A stretch of DNA of 44,286 bases from Candidatus Caccovicinus merdipullorum. Its GTDB lineage: Bacteria > Bacillota > Clostridia > Lachnospirales > Lachnospiraceae. The position numbers were made by a program, and so were the translations under genes. The notes beneath the pieces were generated by a model. The model saw only the letters and a program-made list of their open reading frames with translations. It had not been told where the DNA came from and did no database searches. This document shows positions 25,146 to 41,914 of the stretch, one piece after another (the first letter of the stretch is position 1; each line of letters starts with the position of its first letter). The stretch covers positions 1 through 44,286 of the forward strand of contig DVKS01000183.1 in assembly GCA_018715905.1 (NCBI GenBank), written 5' to 3'.

Positions 25146-25392
25146 ATAAAAAAACGCCCCATGCAATGTAGGTAAATACATACATTACAAGGGACGATTA
25201 ACACCGCGGTTCCACCCTGATTGCCCTCCGCATCGCGAAGTGCCGCTTCATTTGATGATAACGGAATCACCGTTCCCGATTAAGGGACGCTCCGAGCTGG
25301 TCTTCACTTTCCTTCCCCGTAAGGCATTCGCAGCAAATCAGCCTCTCTCTGAACGGTTCCGTCAGCTACTGGTCTCATCAACGCTTTATCTG
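25146..25392 (-). ncRNA. Threonine T-box riboswitch leader of thrS
   Basis: The minus-strand leader contains the invariant T-box AGGGTGGAACCGCGG (25203-25218 region) followed by an intrinsic terminator. Stem I lies toward 25260-25390. A specifier-loop segment reads GTGAAGACCAGC, in which ACC would be the threonine codon, consistent with the gene. Uncharged tRNA-Thr binding the specifier and T-box would favour the antiterminator and allow thrS transcription. Confidence 0.93.
25148..25196 (-). terminator. T-box terminator of thrS leader
   Basis: A long hairpin (CGTCCC...GGGGCG, with TGTAATGTA/TACATTGCA inside) is followed by seven Ts on the minus strand. It is mutually exclusive with the T-box antiterminator. 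Between it and the thrS ATG are about 125 bases containing a GATGCG/CGCATC hairpin and a CGCGTCTTG motif also found at about 3060. Confidence 0.9.
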
Positions 25393-28244: not shown

Positions 28245-29363
28245 TTATTTCAGCCCGCTTCCGCCGCACAAAAGCGGCTTCACAAGCCTCTCATATTCCC
28301 CGTTATGGCGGCACCATTCCTCTTCCCGGATAAGTACCGGTTCTCCCTCCAGGGTGTATCCCTGGATATAAGGCGCTCCGCCAAATTCTTTTTTCTCGTA
28401 CTCTTCTATGGGAACGGCAATCATCCGGTCCACTTCTTCTCCCGGCAGAAATTCCGGCAGATCCATCTCATAAAGATAGACCTGTCCAATCTCCCGGTCA
28501 AAGAAATCGTCTTCATGAAGCTCCTCCCGCACCTGTCCGGCATAGACAAGCCTCTCCGGATCCATCTTCACGCCGGTTTCTTCCCGAACCTCACGAAGGA
28601 CCGCCTGGGCATGCTCCTCACTGGCATCCACATGGCCGGTAGAGGACAGATCATAAAAACCGGGGAAATCTTTTTTCGATGCGGCGCGCTGCTGAAAATA
28701 CAGCCATATGGTGTCGCCATGTCTGGCATACATCCAGCAGTGAACCACCTCATGCCAGAGTCCCAGCCGGTGTACCTGCCCCCGCTTCATCTGCCCTAAA
28801 GGCTTTCCGTCATCATCATAGACAGAAAATATCTCCTGCTCACCGGGAACCGCTTCTTTGTCGGAATCCGGATGTCTGGCAGCCCCTGGAAGCCCGGCCT
28901 CTTCCTCCCCGGAAAACAGTTCCGGAAACGTATCTTCGATAATCCTGGCAGCAGTGGCTACCATCCGAGCACAGGGCCGCTTCCGGTAATACTCCGGTGT
29001 CCTCTCGGAAGGAGCTGCGCTTTTTTCCGCCGCCCGAAGGCCCAGAATCTCCCGGCAGATAATGGTCTTATGCTCCGCCTTAAATGCCGCTGCCATTCTC
29101 CGCACCGTCTCATAATTCTCTGTCTTGGCCGCCTGATCGGCCGGGTCTGTATTTCCGCAGACCAGCCCGGCAATCATAAACATGGCAGATACTGTGCCGC
29201 ACACTTCCCGCATGCGCCCCATGCCGGCTCCAAAGGAACAGGAAAGGCGAAGGGATGTATCCCGGTCCAGGCCAAACAAATCGCTGTAGGCAGTAAATAC
29301 AGACTGACAGCAGTTATAGCCGGACATGAACAGCTCCACCGCCTGATCTACTCTGCTTTTCAT
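28245..29363 (-). CDS. C_GCAxxG_C_C family domain fused to a NUDIX hydrolase
   Basis: A 372-residue two-domain protein. Residues 1 to about 150 match the C_GCAxxG_C_C family (YNCCQSVFTAYSDLFGL, then SFGAGMGRMREVCGTVS), a putative redox protein usually encoded alone. From about 195 onward is a NUDIX hydrolase of the isopentenyl-isomerase-like type. The box GHVDASEEHAQAVLREVREETGV (about 265-287) fits GX5EX7REUXEEXGU exactly. The joining segment is polar and unstructured. Both halves look intact and one continuous frame covers them. The NUDIX substrate is unknown. It is encoded just downstream of ilvE on the same strand. Confidence 0.88.
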   Translation of the reverse strand: MKSRVDQAVELFMSGYNCCQSVFTAYSDLFGLDRDTSLRLSCSFGAGMGRMREVCGTVSAMFMIAGLVCGNTDPADQAAKTENYETVRRMAAAFKAEHKTIICREILGLRAAEKSAAPSERTPEYYRKRPCARMVATAARIIEDTFPELFSGEEEAGLPGAARHPDSDKEAVPGEQEIFSVYDDDGKPLGQMKRGQVHRLGLWHEVVHCWMYARHGDTIWLYFQQRAASKKDFPGFYDLSSTGHVDASEEHAQAVLREVREETGVKMDPERLVYAGQVREELHEDDFFDREIGQVYLYEMDLPEFLPGEEVDRMIAVPIEEYEKKEFGGAPYIQGYTLEGEPVLIREEEWCRHNGEYERLVKPLLCGGSGLK

Positions 29364-32105: not shown

Positions 32106-33431
32106 CTATCTCATATTCTCCGGATAATCAATATCTTTCAACTCTTCTTCCCCGGCTGGAAATTCCATCACACGGCCGGGGAATTCTTTCATGATCCGGC
32201 TGCCGCCCCGGTCACCGGTCAGAGCCAGAAGCTTTTCCCGGTAAGTCCGGTAAAACAATACCGGATTTCCCCGGCGCCCGCCCCAGCTTAAGCATCCCAT
32301 ATCCTTTTTCCCCGGGATCAGATTTTCCTGATAATTTTTAAGAAAGTTCTTCATGGTCCTGACAGAAAGCCGGGGCTGGTCCGCCACGGAAAACAGATAT
32401 CCGTCAGCTTCCTCCCCTGCTGCCAGAACTCCCAGATGAATGGATGCGGTAATTCCCTCTGCAGCCCGGTCATTTTTCACCGTCCAGAACCCCGGCAGAT
32501 CCCACCGGACAGACTGCCCTTCCTCCAGATTCCTGCCTTCTCTTAAAATTTCCGGATACTGGCTTACCACAATGATTTCCAGATGGATTTCTTCTGCTTC
32601 CAGCTCCCTCTTTAACTCCAGGAACATATCCAGACCATGGCGGTACAGCGGCTTTCCCTCGTACAGTTTCAAAAGCTTGTTTTCACCGAAACGATTTCCA
32701 AAACCGGAAGCCATATAAATCAATGCAATCCGCGCCGGCCGCAGGCGGCAGAGACGGCATTCCCAGCCTTTTTCCTGAAGGATTCCGCATATCTTCTCTC
32801 CTGCATGCTTTCTGTATGTCGTGTCCGCCTGATTTAAAAACAGCATGAGGGGAGCTGAGGGCAAGCGGAACCGAATGGGCCTTAAATACCCTCTCTCCAA
32901 AAAATCCGCAGCCATTTCCGGCGTAACCGGCACCTGGCCGTCCTCTTCCGCTGGTGCCCCGTCTGCCCTCAAAAGACCCAGCTGCCACCGGTGGCAGACG
33001 GTTTCCAGAGGCTGTCCTACGGCAGAAAGGCCGAACATAACAAAAACCGCATCGGTATTGGCGGGCACCACTGGCTCACGGGGCCATTCCGGGAACTTCA
33101 TAGGCAGGTTCCGCGAACCGTCAGCCTCCACCAAAACCAGGTCAGCCATCCTGCAGATCTGTTCGTAAGCATCCTGACCGGGATAGGTCAGCTTTCCCCG
33201 GGCCTTTCCCTCGCCCAGACTTCCAAATACCGTGATTCCTTCCTCATCCAGCATCCGCTCCGCCTCACAGACCTCTTTTCCCGCCGTGCTGTGCTCCCTG
33301 GGCAGCCACATATGGGTGGTGGTCATCACCGCAGTCTTTTTCCCCGCCTTCCAGGCGGCAGCAGCCAGACGTTCAATCATGGAAGTCTTCCCGCCGGAAC
33401 CGATCACCGCAATTACGTAAGATTTATTCAT
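32106..33431 (-). CDS. YqeC-MocA fusion, molybdenum hydroxylase maturation
   Basis: A 441-residue fusion. The N-terminal half is YqeC-like: P-loop IGSGGKTSMIERLA, TTTHMWLP, and VEADGSRNLPMKFP, a family tied to selenium-dependent molybdenum hydroxylases. The C-terminal half (from about 230) is a MobA/MocA-type nucleotidyltransferase: LIYMASGFGNRFGENKLLKLYEGKPLYRH and FSVADQPRLS. MocA adds CMP to molybdopterin to give the cytosine dinucleotide cofactor of xanthine-dehydrogenase-type enzymes. Its start overlaps the preceding gene by four bases (ATGA). The hydroxylase itself is not in the window. Confidence 0.9.
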   Translation of the reverse strand: MNKSYVIAVIGSGGKTSMIERLAAAAWKAGKKTAVMTTTHMWLPREHSTAGKEVCEAERMLDEEGITVFGSLGEGKARGKLTYPGQDAYEQICRMADLVLVEADGSRNLPMKFPEWPREPVVPANTDAVFVMFGLSAVGQPLETVCHRWQLGLLRADGAPAEEDGQVPVTPEMAADFLERGYLRPIRFRLPSAPLMLFLNQADTTYRKHAGEKICGILQEKGWECRLCRLRPARIALIYMASGFGNRFGENKLLKLYEGKPLYRHGLDMFLELKRELEAEEIHLEIIVVSQYPEILREGRNLEEGQSVRWDLPGFWTVKNDRAAEGITASIHLGVLAAGEEADGYLFSVADQPRLSVRTMKNFLKNYQENLIPGKKDMGCLSWGGRRGNPVLFYRTYREKLLALTGDRGGSRIMKEFPGRVMEFPAGEEELKDIDYPENMR

Positions 33432-34357
33432 GAATCTGTCCCCCTGCCGAAATACTTTTCAAACAGCTTTCTGGACTCTGCCGCTAACTCTGCCTCCATA
33501 TCCAGATAATTTTTAAGGAATTCCCGGCACTGGGGCGTAAGCTGTGAGAAACCGCCCTCCGCTCCTCCCGACTTCGTATTCAGAAGCGGAAAACCCAGCT
33601 GTTTCTGCGCGTCTTTAACGATCTTCCAGCCTTTGCTGTAGGACATATGCATCTGGCGGCATGCAGTCTGCATGGATCCGGTGTGATCCACCAGACTTAA
33701 AAACTGAGCAATGCCGGGGCCGAAAAAAATCTCCTCCCCCTCAATATAAAGACGACATACGCTGTGAAGAGGGATCCGGCTTTCTCTCCACCCTTCCCAG
33801 TCTTCCTCTCCCTCGATGGGCATGATAATTCCCTGATCTTCTACGGGGATCTCCTCTACCAGAGGGCTGACCGAATCCTGCCGCAGGGCTCCCCTGAGAC
33901 CGCCAGGCCCTTCGTATCCAAGGATCTGAGGAATCAGGCTGCTGGAAATCAAAACCGGGTGACCGCGTCTTCCCTGGTATACCGGGCAGGCTGCCTTTCC
34001 TCCGCTTTTCAGGAGACGTTCCACCGTATCCGCCAGAAACAGCGGATATTTTACCGGCAGGATCAGCACCTGGCTGCAGAGTTCTTCGATATAGCGAAGG
34101 CCCATGCCCACACTGTAAAACATGTCTGTGGTCTCATAAGCCTCATTCCGCAGGCAGATCACCCCCATTCTGGCGATATGTTTCTCCAGCAGATCGCCCT
34201 CCCGGCCGGTTATAACAATGACGGGTTCCACACCGGCCTGTTTTAAGGTAATGATGATGCGGCGGATGACCGTGGTTTTGCCTACAGGAAGAAGAGGCTG
34301 GAACACAGAAGATCCGGTCTTATGGCCCGCTGCGGATATGACTGCACCTGTCTTCAT
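33428..34357 (-). CDS. MobA-like nucleotidyltransferase fused to a ModE-type HTH
   Basis: A 309-residue two-domain protein. Residues 1 to about 195 form a MobA/MocA-like NTP transferase (VISAAGHKTGSSVFQPLLPVGKTTVIRRII, VYQGRRGHPVLI). The usual GxSxRxGxxK loop is altered to AAGHKTGSSVFQP, so catalysis may be reduced. From about 210 the sequence is a ModE-like winged helix: FGPGIAQFLSLVDHTGSMQTACRQMHMSYSKGWKIV, then GGAEGGFSQLTPQ. ModE represses molybdate uptake genes. I infer that this protein senses cofactor or nucleotide status and binds DNA. It lacks the C-terminal molybdate-binding (Mop/TOBE) domains of classic ModE. Overlaps of four bases couple it to both neighbours. Confidence 0.87.
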   Translation of the reverse strand: MKTGAVISAAGHKTGSSVFQPLLPVGKTTVIRRIIITLKQAGVEPVIVITGREGDLLEKHIARMGVICLRNEAYETTDMFYSVGMGLRYIEELCSQVLILPVKYPLFLADTVERLLKSGGKAACPVYQGRRGHPVLISSSLIPQILGYEGPGGLRGALRQDSVSPLVEEIPVEDQGIIMPIEGEEDWEGWRESRIPLHSVCRLYIEGEEIFFGPGIAQFLSLVDHTGSMQTACRQMHMSYSKGWKIVKDAQKQLGFPLLNTKSGGAEGGFSQLTPQCREFLKNYLDMEAELAAESRKLFEKYFGRGTDS

Positions 34358-35130
34358 CGTTCTCCGCCAAGGAATAATTCATTTTTCTTGGGCTCCTGGC
34401 ACACCTTCTTCAGTTTCTGGGAAATGGCGGCCGCCATAAGCTTATTCAGCTTTCTGGCATCTCTTGGACAGACCTTAATGCAGCGCATACAGGAAATACA
34501 GAGCGACGGGTCTGTTTTTGCCGGATTATCTGCCGGTATGGCCCCTACAGGGCATTTTCCGACGCAGGCTCCGCAGCCGCTGCACTCTTTTCCCGCCTCC
34601 GGGTGCACGGGCACCACGCCGAACTTCCGGTAAGGCCGGTTTCCCGGCACAGTAACCTCTTCTGCCGGCTCCTCACCGGTAAGTATGGGCCGGAGCTGAT
34701 CTGCAAATCCTCTTAATTCCTTTTCATCCTCCCGGTCAGGCCTTCCGGCTGCAAACTGCCTTGCAATAGAATGTTCCGCCACCGCGCTTACCGCACCAAT
34801 GCAGAAAAATCCCGCCTCATCCATGACGTCTTTAAGCTCCGCAAGGGTATCTTCGTAAGCCCGGTTTCCATACACGCAAACGATAACTGCCCTGGCGCCG
34901 CTTCCTTTTATCTGCCGGATACGCTCCGCTGCCGCCTGAGGCACTCTTCCTCCATAAGAAGGAACAGCTGCCAGACAGACATCCTCCGGTGAAATACTGA
35001 TATCCGAATATACCGTATCCATCCGGGTAAGATCAATTACCTGGCGCTTTAAGCCGATCTCCTCGGCCAGTATATCTGCTGCCCTTTTCGTACCGCCTGT
35101 AGGACTGAAAACCATTTCGTATAATTTCAT
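34354..35130 (-). CDS. EFR1-like flavodoxin/ferredoxin fusion protein
   Basis: A protein of about 258 residues with an N-terminal flavodoxin-like domain (YEMVFSPTGGTKRAADILAEE, AVPSYGGRVPQAAAERI) and a C-terminal pair of [4Fe-4S] motifs (CSGCGACVGKCPVGAI and CISCMRCIKVCP). Such EFR1-family proteins shuttle electrons in anaerobes. The start MKLYEM follows GGAGGAGG and is preferred over the track start. It leads the EFR1, NTase-ModE, YqeC-MocA operon, so it may supply electrons for cofactor or hydroxylase maturation, an inference from position. An extended -10 TGGTATAAT (35169-35177) lies about 30 bases upstream. Confidence 0.9.
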   Translation of the reverse strand: MKLYEMVFSPTGGTKRAADILAEEIGLKRQVIDLTRMDTVYSDISISPEDVCLAAVPSYGGRVPQAAAERIRQIKGSGARAVIVCVYGNRAYEDTLAELKDVMDEAGFFCIGAVSAVAEHSIARQFAAGRPDREDEKELRGFADQLRPILTGEEPAEEVTVPGNRPYRKFGVVPVHPEAGKECSGCGACVGKCPVGAIPADNPAKTDPSLCISCMRCIKVCPRDARKLNKLMAAAISQKLKKVCQEPKKNELFLGGER

Positions 35131-35185
35131 TTCGATTCCTCCTCCAAAAATCAAGCAATTCTTTTTTCATTATACCATAAATTCA

Positions 35186-35439: not shown

Positions 35440-36570
35440 TTACTCCCCACGCAAAAGAAGAACCGCCTCCGGCTGTACCGTAAGCCACTGGGGAATCACA
35501 CCGGCACTGTCATGGGTATGGATTGTCTTTTCCACCTTCCACCAGAGGCCGTTTTCCAGAGTCACATACCACTCAAAGGGCATTTCCGTAACGGATCCAT
35601 TCCCCACCGGTATCCGGTTTATGCCGATTCCATCGGCCGCCGGTTCCAGATCATGGGCCCGGATTCCCACTGCGAAAATTTCCGGTCCCACTTCCTGTTC
35701 CGTGGTGAGTACCAGTCCGTTCCAGTCCAGGGCCTTTACCTGCCGGGCCCCCAGGCGCTCAATCCGTGAAATGTTTTTGCAGCCTGTAAGGCGGGCCGCC
35801 TGGCAGGTTCCCGGGTTCTGGAAGATATCCCTGGTCCTTCCGGCTGTCAGCACGTGTCCATTGTCCATAAGAAGCAGGTAATCGCAAAGCTGATACGCTT
35901 CATCCCTGTCATGGGTCACCATGACAGATGCGCCGTCATAATCTTTTAATACCCGGGCCAGTTCCAGCCGAAGTCCTTCCCGAAGGTATGTGTCCATGGC
36001 AGAAAAGGGTTCATCCAGCAAAAGGACTCTGGGTTCATAGGCCAGAATCCTTGCCAGAGCGGTCCGCTGCTGCTGTCCGCCTGAAAGCTGGCCGGGGTAG
36101 CGCTTTTCCAGTCCGGACAGCCGGAATCGCCGGATCATTTCCTCCACCCGCGCATCCTGTGCGGCCCGGCTTAAACGCTCTCCTTTCCCGGGCAGCCCCT
36201 TCTTTCCCTGACTTTTTAATCCGATCCGGATATTTTCTTCTACTGTCATATTGGGGAAAAGAGCGTAATTCTGAAACAGATATCCCACCCGTCTCTGCTG
36301 GGGCTTTCTGTTAATCTTACGTTCCCGGTGAAAGAGGATCTGCTCTTCTTCTTCTCTGCCGTCTCTTTCCAGGCTGCGAAGCAGGATCTTTCCCTCATCT
36401 GGTGTTACGATCCCGGCAATCGATTTTAAGGTCATGCTTTTCCCGCATCCCGATGGTCCAAGGATCCCCAGGCATCCTCTGCCGCAGGAAAACTGAATCT
36501 CCAGCCGGAACTCCTTCAGCTGTTTCCGGATATCCACTTCCAGAAGATTCGTATTATCGCTGTGTTCCAT
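35440..36570 (-). CDS. modC: Molybdate ABC transporter ATP-binding protein
   Basis: A 376-residue ATPase with Walker A GPSGCGKSMT, signature LSGGQQQRTALARIL, Walker B VLLLDEPFSAMD and switch VTHDRDEAYQL. The C-terminal part after about residue 250 is an OB/TOBE-like regulatory domain. The length and fusion match ModC of Clostridia. It energises molybdate (or tungstate) uptake with ModB and ModA, directly upstream on the same strand. It follows an AGGAGAT site and ends before a strong terminator. Confidence 0.94.
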   Translation of the reverse strand: MEHSDNTNLLEVDIRKQLKEFRLEIQFSCGRGCLGILGPSGCGKSMTLKSIAGIVTPDEGKILLRSLERDGREEEEQILFHRERKINRKPQQRRVGYLFQNYALFPNMTVEENIRIGLKSQGKKGLPGKGERLSRAAQDARVEEMIRRFRLSGLEKRYPGQLSGGQQQRTALARILAYEPRVLLLDEPFSAMDTYLREGLRLELARVLKDYDGASVMVTHDRDEAYQLCDYLLLMDNGHVLTAGRTRDIFQNPGTCQAARLTGCKNISRIERLGARQVKALDWNGLVLTTEQEVGPEIFAVGIRAHDLEPAADGIGINRIPVGNGSVTEMPFEWYVTLENGLWWKVEKTIHTHDSAGVIPQWLTVQPEAVLLLRGE

Positions 36571-36611: not shown

Positions 36612-37283
36612 CTATTTTCTCTGGTTTTCCGTGCGCATGGCCGCCCAGTTCATCAGCATTACCGAAAGCAGAGCGATCACTGCAATCACCATCACATACC
36701 GGTTTGCCGTGTCCATATTTCCGGCCGCCACCTCAGAATAAACCGCCATGGGAAGAGTTCTGGTTTTTCCGGCAATGTTTCCCGCGATCATAGCGGTGGC
36801 GCCGAATTCGCCAAGTCCCCTGGCAAAGGCCAGTACACCGCCGCTTACCACGCCGGGGGCCGCATTGGCCAGAAGAACCTTCCGGAAAATCTCCCACTCA
36901 CTCATGCCCAGGGTCCGCGCCGCAGCCGTCAGGTTCGGATCCACCTGCTCGAAGGCGCCCCTGGCGGACCGGTACATCAGGGGAAAGGACATAGTCACTG
37001 CCGCAATGACGGTAGCTCCCCAGGAAAAAGCGATCTTAATGCTGAAAAAATCCAGGAAAAACTTTCCCAGCGGCCGCTTCACCCCGAACAGATACAGCAG
37101 GAAAAATCCCGCTACCGTCGGCGGCAGCACCAGGGGCAGCGTCAGAATGCCATCCAGAATCATCTTAGCCCGTCCATCCCGAATGCTGACCACCAGCCAT
37201 GCCGCCAGGATTCCAAGGAAAAATGTAATTAAAATCGACAGACTCGCCGTCTTCACAGATATCCAGACCGGTGACCAGTCCAT
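36612..37283 (-). CDS. modB: Molybdate ABC transporter permease
   Basis: A 223-residue permease with about five spans (SLSILITFFLGILAAWLVVS, LPLVLPPTVAGFFLLYLFG, FSWGATVIAAVTMSFPLMY). The EAA loop AARTLGMSEWEIFRKVLLANAAPG contacts ModC, and the RGLGEFGATAMIAGNI segment is typical of ModB/CysT permeases. The AGGAGGG site gives the start. A degenerate trace CTGCCGCCGGACGGC, like the leader palindromes, lies in the 41-base gap to modC. Confidence 0.95.
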   Translation of the reverse strand: MDWSPVWISVKTASLSILITFFLGILAAWLVVSIRDGRAKMILDGILTLPLVLPPTVAGFFLLYLFGVKRPLGKFFLDFFSIKIAFSWGATVIAAVTMSFPLMYRSARGAFEQVDPNLTAAARTLGMSEWEIFRKVLLANAAPGVVSGGVLAFARGLGEFGATAMIAGNIAGKTRTLPMAVYSEVAAGNMDTANRYVMVIAVIALLSVMLMNWAAMRTENQRK

Positions 37284-37320: not shown

Positions 37321-37380
37321 CACTGGAAAATTATTTCTCTCACCGAAAAAATGTTTTTCCCGCCGGAAAAGATCAGCCCT
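37321..37380. repeat. Three degenerate 20-bp tandem units between modA and modB
   Basis: Three successive 20-base units begin CACTGGAAAA, CACCGAAAAA and CGCCGGAAAA. The first two agree at about 14 of 20 positions. The tract spans the modA stop and the modA-modB gap. Whether it is a binding array or drifted spacer DNA is open. Confidence 0.4.
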
Positions 37381-38191
37381 CACTTCCGGCAGCAAATCCA
37401 TAAGCTTCAAATACCGCCATGGCTTCCGGTGTTTTCAGGAAATCTACCAGACTTTGAGCAGCTTCCTCATGGGCCGTATTCTTTACCACGGCAACAGGGT
37501 AAATCACCTTGGTCTTAAGGCTTCCTTCCGGCGCCTCTGCAACCACATCTACCTGATCTTCCATGCTGGCCGCATCGGTCGCATAAACGATGCCTGCGTC
37601 TGCGCTTGCAGCTGCTACCTGGTTTAACACCTCCGTTACATTGGTGCCGAAGCTGACCTTATCCTGAATGCTGTCCCAGATCCCCAGACTGGTCAGCGCT
37701 TCCTGGGCATACTGACCGGCCGGAACGCTGGCAGGGTCGCCTAATGCAATGCTGGCAGCATCTGCAATATCCTCAAATGCGCTTAATCCGGCCTCATTTC
37801 CCTCAGGAACGATCAGAACGATCTTATTCTCCAGAAGGTCGGTAATGGTATCCGATGCAATCAGTCCTTCTTCATTCAGTGCATCCATCTGCGTGGTGGC
37901 AGCAGACATAAATACATCTGCTTCCAGTCCTTCCTCAATCTGTGTCTGCAGTTTTCCGGAGCTGTCATAGGTGCCTTTTACTACAATATTCGGATACTGC
38001 TCCTGGAACATGGGGATCAGCTCCTCTTCAAAGGCATTCTTCAGGCTGGCAGCTGCAGCAATGAGAATTTCCTCGGTCTCCACAGTTTCCTGAGGCGCTG
38101 CAGTGGTTTCCCCACTCTGGGAAGAGCAGCCGGCCAGCATGCCGGCCGTCAGGGCCGCTGTCATCATCCATACCAACGTTCTTTTTTTCAT
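37373..38191 (-). CDS. modA: Molybdate ABC transporter substrate-binding lipoprotein
   Basis: A 272-residue periplasmic-type binding protein anchored as a lipoprotein: signal MKKRTLVWMMTAALTAGMLAGCSSQ with lipobox LAGC. The ModA fold follows (ILIAAAASLKNAFEEELIPMFQEQYPNI, TYDSSGKLQTQIEEGLEADVFMSAA, LIVPEGNEAGL, ADAGIVYATDAAS). The serine in AASLKNAF and the SSGKLQ turn are the expected oxyanion contacts. Molybdate is favoured over tungstate by the neighbours. It starts 58 bases after the MOSC-MogA stop with GAGGGAG. Confidence 0.95.
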   Translation of the reverse strand: MKKRTLVWMMTAALTAGMLAGCSSQSGETTAAPQETVETEEILIAAAASLKNAFEEELIPMFQEQYPNIVVKGTYDSSGKLQTQIEEGLEADVFMSAATTQMDALNEEGLIASDTITDLLENKIVLIVPEGNEAGLSAFEDIADAASIALGDPASVPAGQYAQEALTSLGIWDSIQDKVSFGTNVTEVLNQVAAASADAGIVYATDAASMEDQVDVVAEAPEGSLKTKVIYPVAVVKNTAHEEAAQSLVDFLKTPEAMAVFEAYGFAAGSEG

Positions 38192-38249: not shown

Positions 38250-39206
38250 TTACCGCTGTCCGGCACATTCGGAAGCACTGCCCCGCAGGATCTTAATGCC
38301 GTGCTCCAACGGCTCCAGAATAAATCCAAGGCTCTCCCGGACTGCCTTGGGACTTCCCGGGAGATTGACGATTAACGTTTTCTTCCGGATTACCGATACG
38401 CCGCGGCCAAGCATGGCACGGCTGGTCAGCTCCATGGAACGGTATCGGATATACTCTGCAATCCCTGGCGCATTCCGGTCCGCCACTGCCATGGTGGCCT
38501 CCGGCGTCTGGTCCCGCATGGAAAATCCCGTACCGCCGCTGGTGACCACCAGATCCAGCTGCCGCCCGTCTGCCAAGCGGATCAGCTGCTGCTTCAAAAC
38601 TTCCGGCTCATCAGGAAGCAAAAGGACTTCCTCCACCTGGTATCCCGCCTGTTCAAGCATTTCTTTTGCTGCCGGTCCGCTCTCATCCTTCCGCTTCCCG
38701 GCCGCTCCCTTGTCGCTTAACACGATCACCGCCGCCGAAAAAGGCCTGTCCGGATCAGGCATTATCACTTCCATCTTGTCTCCCGGGCGGACCGTTCCCT
38801 CCCGGATCACTCTGGCAAACACCCCCTGCGTCGGCATGATGCACTCTCCCATCCGCTGATAAATGGCACAGTGGCTGTGGCATTCCTTTCCGATCTGGGT
38901 AATCTCAAGTTCTGCGTCATTAACCAAAAGCCTTGTTCCCACGGGAAGGGAAGAAAAGTCAATTCCTTCCACCACCAGATTTTCCCCGAAAGCGCCGTCG
39001 CCGACACCGGCTCCCCGCTGGTTAAACGCTTTTACCCGGTCATAGGAAAGCAGGCTTACCTGCCGGTGCCAGTTTCCTCCGTGGGCATCGCTCTCAATAC
39101 CAAAGTTTAAAACCAGGCGTCCTTCCGGTACGGCATGTTTTTCTGTGCCGCGCTTTTCGCTGATACAGACGGCACGAACCTGCCCCTGTATATTCTCCTG
39201 CTCCAT
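38250..39206 (-). CDS. MOSC domain fused to MogA/MoaB molybdopterin domain
   Basis: A 318-residue fusion. Residues 1 to about 150 are a MOSC domain (GIESDAHGGNWHRQVSLLSYD, GAFGENLVVEGID, IGKECHSHCAIYQRMGECIMPTQGVFARV), including the conserved cysteine implicated in sulfur or metal-sulfur transfer. From about 155 on is a MogA/MoaB domain: IVLSDKGAAGKRKDESGP, VTSGGTGFSMRDQTPEAT, LPGSPKAV, which binds and adenylylates molybdopterin. The pairing suggests cofactor insertion and sulfuration steps on one chain. It is four bases downstream of moaA. Confidence 0.93.
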   Translation of the reverse strand: MEQENIQGQVRAVCISEKRGTEKHAVPEGRLVLNFGIESDAHGGNWHRQVSLLSYDRVKAFNQRGAGVGDGAFGENLVVEGIDFSSLPVGTRLLVNDAELEITQIGKECHSHCAIYQRMGECIMPTQGVFARVIREGTVRPGDKMEVIMPDPDRPFSAAVIVLSDKGAAGKRKDESGPAAKEMLEQAGYQVEEVLLLPDEPEVLKQQLIRLADGRQLDLVVTSGGTGFSMRDQTPEATMAVADRNAPGIAEYIRYRSMELTSRAMLGRGVSVIRKKTLIVNLPGSPKAVRESLGFILEPLEHGIKILRGSASECAGQR

Positions 39207-39210
39207 GGTT

Positions 39211-40284
39211 TCATCCTCCTATGTCAATCATATTTCTCTGTTCCGTCATTGCCTGAGGCTGTTCAAAACAATGGGCTCCCGGCTTTGACCGCACCGCCTT
39301 CTCCATGGCTTCGGAAAGGCGTTTCTGCAGATCCGGAGCATCCGGACAGTCTGCGTATTTCCATTCCCAGTGTCCGTTTTCCCGAGTCTTAGCCGCCTGA
39401 TCCTGTCTGAGGACAGCCCGCAGGTCTTCTCCATCCGGATAACACAGACATGTCTTTAAAAAGCCGCTGGCTGTCAGACGGATACGGCTGCAGTCTTTGC
39501 AGAATTTCCCGTGCATGGCACTGATAAGACCCAGACTTCCTTTAAATCCAGGCACTTGGTAATACACCGCAGGCCCCGCCCCATGGCGCCGTCCGTCCGG
39601 CTCCATCCCCGGATAACGCTTCTGCATCTCCTTAAAAAGCGTCTCATGATTTATAGTCTCATACTGCCTTCCATATCCGATGGGCATCATTTCAATAAAT
39701 CGCACATCCACAGGCAGAATCCTGGCAAGCTCTGCCACCGAAACCCAGTCCGGCACCAAATGTTCTGTTCCGGAATCCCTGCCTGCAAAACCTGCCCGGT
39801 CAAAATCAATAGACACTGCATTTACCTTTACGGGAATCCCGCTTCTGCAGGCCGCCTGTATGGCCGATTCCACCGTTTCCAATCCGTCTGCACCTGTGAT
39901 CTGATGGTAGCGCGCCCGGTCCCTGGTATCCAGGCTGATATTGATCCCATCGATCCCCGCTTCCAAAAGACCCGGAAGCTCCTCTTCAAGGCGGATTCCG
40001 TTGGTGGTAAGCGTCACCGTCTCGATTCCTGGAACTTCCTTAATCATCTTCACCAGCCGGCAGCATCCCCGGCGCACCAAAGGTTCCCCGCCGGTTATCT
40101 TAATATGGCGGATCCCAAGTCTTGCTCCACAGATTGCCACCGCCTGGATCTCCTCAAAGGTAAGGATCTGCGCCGCCGGCTCCTTTTGGGCACCGTGAGG
40201 CATACAGTAGCAGCACCGCAGATTGCAGCGGTCTGTAATGGAAATCCGCATATAGTCAATGGTTCGTCCGTAAGAATCCTTCAT
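39211..40284 (-). CDS. moaA: GTP 3',8-cyclase (radical SAM)
   Basis: A 357-residue MoaA, which with MoaC turns GTP into cyclic pyranopterin monophosphate. The radical-SAM cluster motif is CNLRCCYC in DRCNLRCCYCMPHG, GGEPLVRRGC follows, and the C-terminal second [4Fe-4S] site is seen in FCKDCSRIRLTASGFLKTCL. The start overlaps the moaC stop by four bases (ATGA). A slightly long insert around 165-185 is unremarkable. Confidence 0.96.
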   Translation of the reverse strand: MKDSYGRTIDYMRISITDRCNLRCCYCMPHGAQKEPAAQILTFEEIQAVAICGARLGIRHIKITGGEPLVRRGCCRLVKMIKEVPGIETVTLTTNGIRLEEELPGLLEAGIDGINISLDTRDRARYHQITGADGLETVESAIQAACRSGIPVKVNAVSIDFDRAGFAGRDSGTEHLVPDWVSVAELARILPVDVRFIEMMPIGYGRQYETINHETLFKEMQKRYPGMEPDGRRHGAGPAVYYQVPGFKGSLGLISAMHGKFCKDCSRIRLTASGFLKTCLCYPDGEDLRAVLRQDQAAKTRENGHWEWKYADCPDAPDLQKRLSEAMEKAVRSKPGAHCFEQPQAMTEQRNMIDIGG

Positions 40285-40772
40285 GACTCCCTCACCGCTT
40301 TCGGGTGGAAAAATTCGCCGCTCTTTCCGCCGGATTTGTGCTCTAGCCGAATCTCTCCCATTTCCATGGTCCTGTCAACGGCCTTGCACATATCGTAAAC
40401 CGTCAGAAGGGCCGCAGTTACACCGGTCAGCGCCTCCATCTCCACTCCCGTCTTTCCCGTGGTTCTGGCTGTACAGACTGCTTCGATCTCACATCGTTCC
40501 TGCTTTATGGAAAAATCAATGGCAAGACTGGAAAGGGGCAGGGGATGGCACAAAGGGATCAGTTCCCAGGTCCGCTTGGCTCCCATGATTCCGGCGATCC
40601 GGGCCGTACCCAGCACATCTCCCTTTTTCATGGTTCCTTCCATAACCATATCAAGACATTCCCGGCTCATAAAAATGCTTCCTCTGGCCTTTGCCTCCCG
40701 AACTGTGTCCGCCTTTTCTCCCACATCTACCATGCGGGCATTTCCCGCCTCATCAAAATGTGTAAATTTCAT
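40281..40772 (-). CDS. moaC: Cyclic pyranopterin monophosphate synthase
   Basis: A 163-residue MoaC. Motifs: HFDEAGNARMVDVGEKADTVREAKARG, IAGIMGAKRTWELIPLCHPLPLSS with the substrate-binding histidine, and KTGVEMEALTGVTAALLTVYDMCKAVD. The start MKFTHFDE at 40772 is preferred because AAGGA lies upstream, whereas the earlier ATGs lack a site. It overlaps moaA by four bases and follows the MoeA-like gene after five bases. Confidence 0.96.
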   Translation of the reverse strand: MKFTHFDEAGNARMVDVGEKADTVREAKARGSIFMSRECLDMVMEGTMKKGDVLGTARIAGIMGAKRTWELIPLCHPLPLSSLAIDFSIKQERCEIEAVCTARTTGKTGVEMEALTGVTAALLTVYDMCKAVDRTMEMGEIRLEHKSGGKSGEFFHPKAVRES

Positions 40773-40777
40773 CGTTT

Positions 40778-41836
40778 CTACCATCCTTTTCCGAAGCCGC
40801 AGGCCGGCCAGGTACAGACGGGGCAATTCAGACACAGTCCCCCCTGTCCCAAAGAAGCCAGCTCTTCTGCCGTCACTTCATCGTCTGCCATAATCTTTGG
40901 GAGTACCAGATCAAATATGGTGCGCTTCGAATACATCACGCAGCCGGGAAGGCCCATGATGGGCACCACCCGGGCGGAGTCTCCTTCTCCCGCCGTATAA
41001 TAAGCCAGCAAAAACATAGCTCCCGGAAGCACCGGAGCGCCGTAGGAGACGATCCTTGCGCCGGTATTCTTAATGGCAAGGGGTGTTTTGTCATCTGGAT
41101 CCACGCTCATGCCGCCGGTACAGATCACCATGTCCGCGCCTTTTTCGATCATGCGCAGAATGGCCTCGGTCACCTTCTTATCGTCATCGTTCCAGATTTC
41201 ATGGCCCATCACTTCCGTATCATACTCTGCCAGCTTCTCCCGGATCACCGGTGAGAAGGTGTCTTCAATCCTTCCGTAATATACTTCATTTCCGGTGGTA
41301 ACGATGGCTGCTTTCTTTTTTCGGAAGGGCACAAGTTCAAAGATCGGACTGCCGCCGGTAATCTCCATGGCCGTCTTTTTGGCTGCCTCCATCTTCTCTT
41401 CCTCGATTACAAGAGGAATGATCCGCGTGCCTGCCAGTTTGTCTCCTGCCTTTACCGGAACATTTCCGTGCCGGGAAGCGATCATCATCTGACCCATGCT
41501 GTTTACTGCCTTAAGGGCCTCATTTTTTATTTTAAACAGGCCGCTGCATGCTGCCGTCAGCTCGATCTTTCCTTCTTTGGGAGCAGAGCGGTCCATGTAT
41601 TCTCCCCTGCAGATGGCGCAGAGAATCTCGGCTGCCTCATCTTCATGAAGCATTCCCTCTGCCTTCTCCCAGACGTAAAGCTGGTCTTTCCCAAGACTTA
41701 AAAGGACCGTGATATCCTCCTTCGTCACCACATGACCTTTCCGAAACCGGGCATCCTTGGTGACGCCTTTGATGATCTGCGTAATGTCATGACACAGTAC
41801 CGCGCCTTCCGCTTCTGTCGTACGAATCAGTTTCAT
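40778..41836 (-). CDS. MoeA/MoaB-like molybdopterin-binding protein with Cys-rich tail
   Basis: A protein of about 352 residues, the first gene of the block. The N-terminal half (AVLCHDITQIIKG, FRKGHVVTKEDI, LYVWE) resembles the MoeA-like proteins of Clostridia, and the C-terminal half is a MoCF-binding domain (AIVTTGNEVYYGRI, MVICTGGMSVDPDDKTP, GLPGCVMYSKRTIFDLVLP). It would act in molybdate insertion. It ends with CLNCPVCTWPACGFGKGW, four cysteines with close spacing that suggest a metal or Fe-S knuckle. The start at 41836 follows GGGAGG. No separate moaD or moaE is in the cluster. Confidence 0.88.
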   Translation of the reverse strand: MKLIRTTEAEGAVLCHDITQIIKGVTKDARFRKGHVVTKEDITVLLSLGKDQLYVWEKAEGMLHEDEAAEILCAICRGEYMDRSAPKEGKIELTAACSGLFKIKNEALKAVNSMGQMMIASRHGNVPVKAGDKLAGTRIIPLVIEEEKMEAAKKTAMEITGGSPIFELVPFRKKKAAIVTTGNEVYYGRIEDTFSPVIREKLAEYDTEVMGHEIWNDDDKKVTEAILRMIEKGADMVICTGGMSVDPDDKTPLAIKNTGARIVSYGAPVLPGAMFLLAYYTAGEGDSARVVPIMGLPGCVMYSKRTIFDLVLPKIMADDEVTAEELASLGQGGLCLNCPVCTWPACGFGKGW

Positions 41837-41853: not shown

Positions 41854-41877
41854 CGTTATTTTTTTTTAAGAATAACG
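41854..41877 (-). promoter_or_regulatory. Putative ModE-type operator
   Basis: A perfect inverted repeat CGTTATT/AATAACG with a ten-base centre, read as CGTTAT-N12-ATAACG. This is the geometry of the E. coli modA operator as I recall it. It lies from about +2 to +25 of the predicted transcript of the molybdenum operon, a blocking position. Confidence 0.65.
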
Positions 41878-41885
41878 CTATTTTC

Positions 41886-41914
41886 AGCATATAATATTTC
41901 AGCCGATTTGTAAA
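41886..41914 (-). promoter_or_regulatory. Promoter of the molybdenum cofactor operon
   Basis: TTTACA (41909-41914) and TATGCT (41886-41891) with a 17-base spacer on the minus strand. It is upstream of the MoeA-like gene and abuts the palindrome at 41854. Confidence 0.6.

Follow-up and report, generated by a model that had tools for sequence, protein, structure and literature searches.

In the gut bacterium Candidatus Caccovicinus merdipullorum (Lachnospiraceae), a gene within a molybdenum cofactor (Moco) operon encodes a fusion of a MobA/MocA-like nucleotidyltransferase domain, predicted to be catalytically dead, with a ModE-type winged helix. We consider it probable (roughly 60%) that this protein is a ModE-type repressor in which the Mop sensor is replaced by a dead MocA-like sensor, shutting the operon when the cofactor is plentiful. 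The stretch of DNA that was analyzed, hereafter the window, comprises the 44,286 nucleotides of contig DVKS01000183.1 and belongs to a draft genome (88.8% complete, 232 contigs, 2.98 Mb). The fused gene and its parts are as follows:

33428..34357, minus strand: fused gene, pseudo-MobA/MocA domain plus ModE-type winged helix (309 aa, ATG start)
33788..34357, minus strand: MobA/MocA-like (pseudo)nucleotidyltransferase domain, residues 1-190 (NTP_transf_3; folds 3d5n, 2we9, 1h4e)
34286..34333, minus strand: degenerate NTP-binding loop, residues 9-24, canonical Arg and Lys missing
34049..34051, minus strand: codon 103, Lys where LxxDxP has its metal-binding Asp (so in all 31 clade members)
33446..33742, minus strand: ModE-type winged helix, residues 206-304 (TIGR00637; 1b9m via profile; genus alignment)

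A preliminary description of this DNA had proposed that the open reading frame joins a MobA/MocA-like domain to a ModE-type helix-turn-helix (HTH), and the domain and structure searches bear this out. The Pfam family NTP_transf_3 matches residues 17-160 (E 2.2e-20) and the NCBIfam model ModE_repress (TIGR00637) gives a domain match over residues 214-294 (E 1.1e-12; 47.9 bits, below the curated cut-off of 98.5); of the matches that the description had anticipated, only Pfam HTH_1 was missed, slightly under its cut-off (24.6 vs 26.6 bits). In line with these assignments, a single profile built from 44 fused relatives retrieves both the solved MobA-like structures 3d5n (1.6e-19) and 2we9 and the ModE-type structures 2ijl (5e-19), E. 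coli ModE 1b9m (1.9e-13) and 1o7l. The AlphaFold2 model of the fused protein (mean pLDDT 91.6, pTM 0.88) has MobA/MocA-type transferases as its top folds (TM-scores by target length of 0.85 for 3d5n and 0.83 for 2we9). The recognition region of the HTH is the best-conserved section of the protein, with a mean column identity of 92% vs 71% for the transferase domain, and within the winged helix HTGSMQTACRQMHMSYSKGW is invariant in the alignment of the nine genus sequences (9/9). The protein shares its fold and the motifs NxxYxxxxMxxS, GHP and GGL with MocA/YgfJ (TIGR03310) and with the DVU_1551 family (NF045665), from which it differs in having a DNA-binding domain, in lacking the catalytic residues and in scoring far under both cut-offs: 66.5 vs 186.45 bits for the TIGR03310 equivalog, a cut-off that the intact YqeC-MocA neighbor likewise misses (86.6 bits), and 142.8 vs 315 bits for NF045665, of which only the first 188 of 359 positions were matched.

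A domain search found no Mop/TOBE domain in the fused protein, and the sole Mop/TOBE match in the genome lies on a different contig, in a 389-aa open frame that presumably encodes an ABC ATPase. Like E. coli ModE, which consists of an HTH and two Mop domains, the fused protein combines a winged helix with a candidate CGNTAT-N12-ATANCG operator and with molybdate-transport and cofactor genes as predicted targets; in E. coli, however, the HTH is N-terminal and is followed by Mop domains, whereas here it is C-terminal and a MocA-like domain occupies the sensor position. The absence of Mop is less exceptional than the preliminary description implied when it held that the ModE HTH is normally fused to this domain, a generalization that failed: the HTH often occurs by itself, Lachnospiraceae commonly have standalone ModE-HTH genes, and a single-domain ModE is present in Desulfovibrio (PMC545781).

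The altered NTP-binding loop of the earlier description was confirmed. The loop reads AAGHKTGSSVFQPLL in place of the canonical AAGxSSRMGxxKxLL, so that a full catalytic loop is not present, both its Arg and its Lys being missing; a second catalytic element, which had gone unmentioned, is also lost (PVKYP vs PVDxP). Among 119 transferase sequences compared (49 without an HTH and 70 with one; 59 intact), catalytic residues (loop Arg, Lys, Asp) are missing in 60/70 HTH-fused transferases vs 0/49 of those without an HTH, a contrast that is inflated by relatedness, as the tree forces only about three (at least three) independent changes. A tree-corrected test of whether HTH fusion goes with catalytic loss was discarded, because the independent pairs are too few for significance. 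The window protein belongs to a clade of 31 fused proteins (SH-aLRT 99), all catalysis-deficient by sequence. The loop R and K and the three metal-binding Asp, (almost) invariant in the 59 intact relatives, are lost across this clade: 0-3% of its members retain R15, K20, D103 and D180, and 16% retain D182. Judged by these residues, the catalytic site is dead, and the transferase domain is predicted to be unable to act as a canonical enzyme. This bears on the suggestion of a BirA-like double function, in which the protein still transfers a nucleotide to molybdopterin through an altered site while the HTH adds regulation. The whole catalytic set is retained in 10/70 HTH-fused relatives, so active fusions probably exist in the family, but the fused protein retains neither the Arg and Lys of the loop nor any of the three acidic residues, and the adjoining gene codes for an intact MocA, which makes such a dual role very unlikely here.

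What the clade has kept is as telling as what it has lost. N71, Y74, M79, S82, G86, P105, P125, G132, H133, P134, G150, G153, L154 and D174 are retained in 94-100% of its members, and position 103 is fixed as Lys in 31/31. From family motif conservation, rather than from ligand-bound structures, these non-catalytic positions would line the substrate pocket. A pocket conserved while the catalytic residues are lost argues for a sensor domain and agrees, as far as the pocket is concerned, with the earlier proposal that the transferase domain serves as a sensor, which would require precisely such conservation. Alternatively, the dead transferase domain of a ModE-box repressor could be a mere dimerization or protein-interaction module, for instance with the MocA part of YqeC-MocA, so that the partner senses or nothing does. 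Fused proteins have indeed often lost catalysis, and several other dead fused lineages show pocket decay as well, with many positions retained in just 55-90%; additionally, there is a 4-bp overlap between the fused gene and that of YqeC-MocA, and the two proteins are thus probably co-produced. Nevertheless, a scaffold would not need the non-catalytic pocket residues that the 31 sequences keep at 94-100%, nor would it need a single fixed residue in place of the lost Asp, and we regard a pure scaffold as rather unlikely compared with a sensor.

Other genomes carry the fusion as well. Full-length orthologues with all features kept are found in eight other members of the genus (65-82% identity to the window protein), and a tenth genus genome (G001) carries a copy interrupted by a masked gap; the orthologues and their synteny rule out an annotation accident or assembly artefact. 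Across 397 Lachnospiraceae genomes there are about 38 fused copies, with named relatives among Lachnospiraceae MAGs and Enterocloster-type species such as C. clostridioforme, C. citroniae and C. asparagiforme, and beyond this family the fused protein occurs in about 8-10 of 399 genomes of the phylum. Thus, the fusion recurs through Lachnospiraceae and some other genomes of the phylum, and nearly all sampled neighborhoods contain mod/moa/xdhC/yqeB-type genes beside it. No description of a MobA-ModE fusion was found in the open-licence literature. Two distant genomes encode the transferase and the ModE-HTH side by side as separate genes (L242, 3027-4000; L243, 3222-4219), which likely represents a pre-fusion stage. 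One genus member (G007) has a second fused paralogue (L019; L273, 6634-7971), which adjoins a molybdenum hydroxylase, shows the identical Asp-to-Lys change and has an additional HTH-like region at its N-terminus. The clusters L036, L181 and L244 lack modABC; behind the fused gene they encode an XdhC-like protein and a FecCD-type ABC transporter that may import molybdate or tungstate.

In the window, the operon order is MPT-binding protein-moaC-moaA-MOSC/mogA-modABC-ferredoxin-fused gene-YqeC/MocA, and its features outside the fused gene are:

41886..41914, minus strand: predicted promoter TTTACA-N17-TATGCT (from sequence; layout conserved in relatives)
41854..41877, no strand assigned: exact 24-bp ModE box CGTTAT-N12-ATAACG, candidate operator
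40778..41836, minus strand: molybdopterin-binding (MoCF domain) protein, which opens the operon; a start at 41836 (MKLIRTTEAEG) suits relatives better than one at 41890
40281..40835, minus strand: moaC (domain/family matches)
39211..40284, minus strand: moaA (domain/family matches)
38250..39206, minus strand: MOSC plus MogA/MoaB-like fusion (domain/family matches)
37373..38191, minus strand: modA (TIGR01256 above cut-off)
36612..37283, minus strand: modB (TIGR02141 above cut-off)
35440..36570, minus strand: modC-type ATPase, no TOBE/Mop domain called (domain/family matches)
34354..35154, minus strand: flavodoxin/ferredoxin (EFR1-like) between modC and the fused gene, 4-bp overlap with the latter
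32106..33431, minus strand: YqeC-MocA fusion with an intact transferase loop, 4-bp overlap with the fused gene

The placement of the EFR1-like gene between modC and the fused gene recurs in another locus (L025), and its product is a possible electron donor in the pathway. YqeC and MocA form a single protein in most of the genus and are encoded by two neighboring genes in Enterocloster (L032, L033, L035, L037) and in one genus member (G008; L034). Elsewhere in the window, a 372-aa ORF at 28245-29363 unites a C-GCAxxG-C-C-type protein with a Nudix-like domain, the two being separate neighboring ORFs in L028 and L029.

The exact box at 41854-41877, which begins right after the expected +1 and ends ahead of the Shine-Dalgarno sequence of the molybdopterin-binding gene, is unlikely to be fortuitous: 0.0007 occurrences are expected in the window, and the pattern CGNTATW-N10-WATANCG occurs only there in the 2.98-Mb genome, with no occurrence of the reversed control. 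Its half-sites and spacing match the E. coli ModE consensus ATCGNTATATA-N6-TATATANCGAT (PMC545781). Moreover, the promoter-box layout before the molybdopterin-binding gene is conserved through the genus and Enterocloster: of 15 distinct leaders, 14 have an exact box and the remaining one a box with one mismatch, and their 12-bp spacers have diverged. The exact box, the E. coli spacing and the conserved layout uphold the earlier designation of this segment as a ModE-type site, at the level of a sequence prediction. Since the box lies between promoter and Shine-Dalgarno sequence, repression is suggested; in contrast to E. coli ModE, the operator here follows the +1 and precedes a Moco-synthesis operon. 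RNA control by a Moco riboswitch or other element was rejected, as an RNA-family search of the window found no Moco riboswitch and only a T-box leader (RF00230, 96.6 bits) at 25187-25390, upstream of a threonyl-tRNA synthetase gene.

Several observations connect the fused protein to this operator. Exact boxes are present in 10/10 genus genomes with the fused gene and absent from G004, which lacks it, and besides the fused protein no other convincing ModE-type HTH was found in the genus, the matches in G004 and G005 being weak and partial. G004 has the same operon order (MPT-binding, moaC, moaA, MOSC/mog, modABC, YqeC-MocA) with the fused gene missing, and no box within two mismatches occurs across its 19.5-kb operon stretch. 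This co-loss of gene and operator is one event, yet it is the natural experiment one would want; comparably, a gradual loss of sites followed the loss of ModE in Geobacter metallireducens (PMC2700814). The fused protein would thus bind the box at 41854-41877, and the comparative evidence (ModE-type HTH, conserved box) speaks against a merely structural HTH. Other observations count against this reading. Enterocloster additionally carries a standalone ModE-HTH, so the box may serve two proteins there, and around the fused genes of several other lineages (L171-L174, L176, L178-L182) no box within one mismatch was found, suggesting that the operator may have changed in them. Species that transcribe the fused gene from a promoter of its own lack a box ahead of it, the exceptions being L036/L054 and, with a weak box, L051/L052; a box ahead of the fused gene as its own transcription unit was therefore rejected as a rule, being seen in few species only. 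A family-wide enrichment of the box was likewise rejected: the stringent box occurs in 29/397 genomes, not above the reversed control pattern, and only its placement is therefore informative. In this regard, half of the stringent boxes across the family (15/30) have a ModE-HTH gene, usually a standalone one, no more than 10 kb away.

The standalone ModE-HTH proteins of Lachnospiraceae, which share the HTH type and the adjacent box with the fused protein but have no sensor domain, raise the question of what is sensed. Conceivably, the HTH at the ModE box responds to molybdate or tungstate itself through another site, as standalone ModE-HTH proteins perhaps do, the transferase domain being irrelevant to sensing. 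Such sensor-less genes do adjoin the same box in other Lachnospiraceae, and Mo sensing by single-domain ModE is described as not clear (PMC545781). This explanation leaves the pocket conservation in the fused clade unaccounted for, and we hold it to be improbable.

In sister species the box extends to selenium metabolism. Most of them have a second box ahead of yedE or selD of a selenium-dependent hydroxylase cluster: six sister species carry an exact box in front of the gene for a YedE-type selenium transporter (L082, L084, L086, L088, L092 and L083, the gene being partly masked in the last), and one carries it in front of selD (L096, L166). These genes sit in a cluster that we take to be ssnA-ygfK-molybdenum hydroxylase-hydantoinase-(yedE)-selD-yedF-yqeB-csd, the names being assigned by sequence similarity. 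In the window's own genome, the selenium cluster (contig C169) has neither yedE nor a box. A further box lies ahead of a molybdenum hydroxylase gene in G007, and a near-box precedes modA in Enterocloster. Exact boxes also occur near standalone ModE-HTH genes in selD-yedF-csd-yqeB clusters (L247, L248, L249, L251), so that shared control of Mo and Se genes seems to be widespread in Lachnospiraceae. SelD, YqeB, YqeC and YgfJ/MocA have been associated with selenium-dependent hydroxylases (PMC2276186).

Taken as a sensor-repressor, the fused protein would bind the ModE box just downstream of the expected start site through its winged helix, while its pocket, devoid of the metal and triphosphate residues, would probably bind a molecule made or used by the intact MocA next door. 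As intact MocA is the very next gene, with a 4-bp overlap, its substrate or product would be the natural ligand, candidates being Mo-molybdopterin, its cytosine dinucleotide (MCD) and CTP. Ligand binding would alter the affinity for DNA, presumably such that plentiful cofactor switches off molybdate uptake and cofactor synthesis. Control would then depend on the molybdenum cofactor rather than on molybdate, as hypothesized in the preliminary description. A more specific version, to which we give less than even odds, is that the dead MocA copy senses the finished cofactor (Mo-molybdopterin or MCD) and reports its level to the ModE-type operator, thereby placing molybdenum uptake, cofactor synthesis and, in sister species, selenium supply (yedE/selD) for selenium-dependent molybdenum hydroxylases under joint control.

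An arrangement of this kind has a precedent in NrtR, a regulator of NAD synthesis in which an inactive Nudix domain is joined to a DNA-binding domain and ADP-ribose binding leads to DNA release (PMC6800001). Both proteins would join a degenerate enzyme domain that retains its pocket, identified here by sequence conservation, to an HTH; the enzyme fold, the DNA-binding domain and the pathway are all unrelated, and the likeness is one of analogy only. That the finished cofactor can feed back on Moco genes is itself familiar from E. coli, where the effect was ascribed to an RNA element, no protein factor having been found (PMC2408646); that device, the Moco riboswitch, differs in being RNA and is missing from the window. 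A dead cofactor-synthesis enzyme on a ModE helix, together with a defined operator, makes both protein-based Moco feedback and ModE sensing without Mop domains directly testable.
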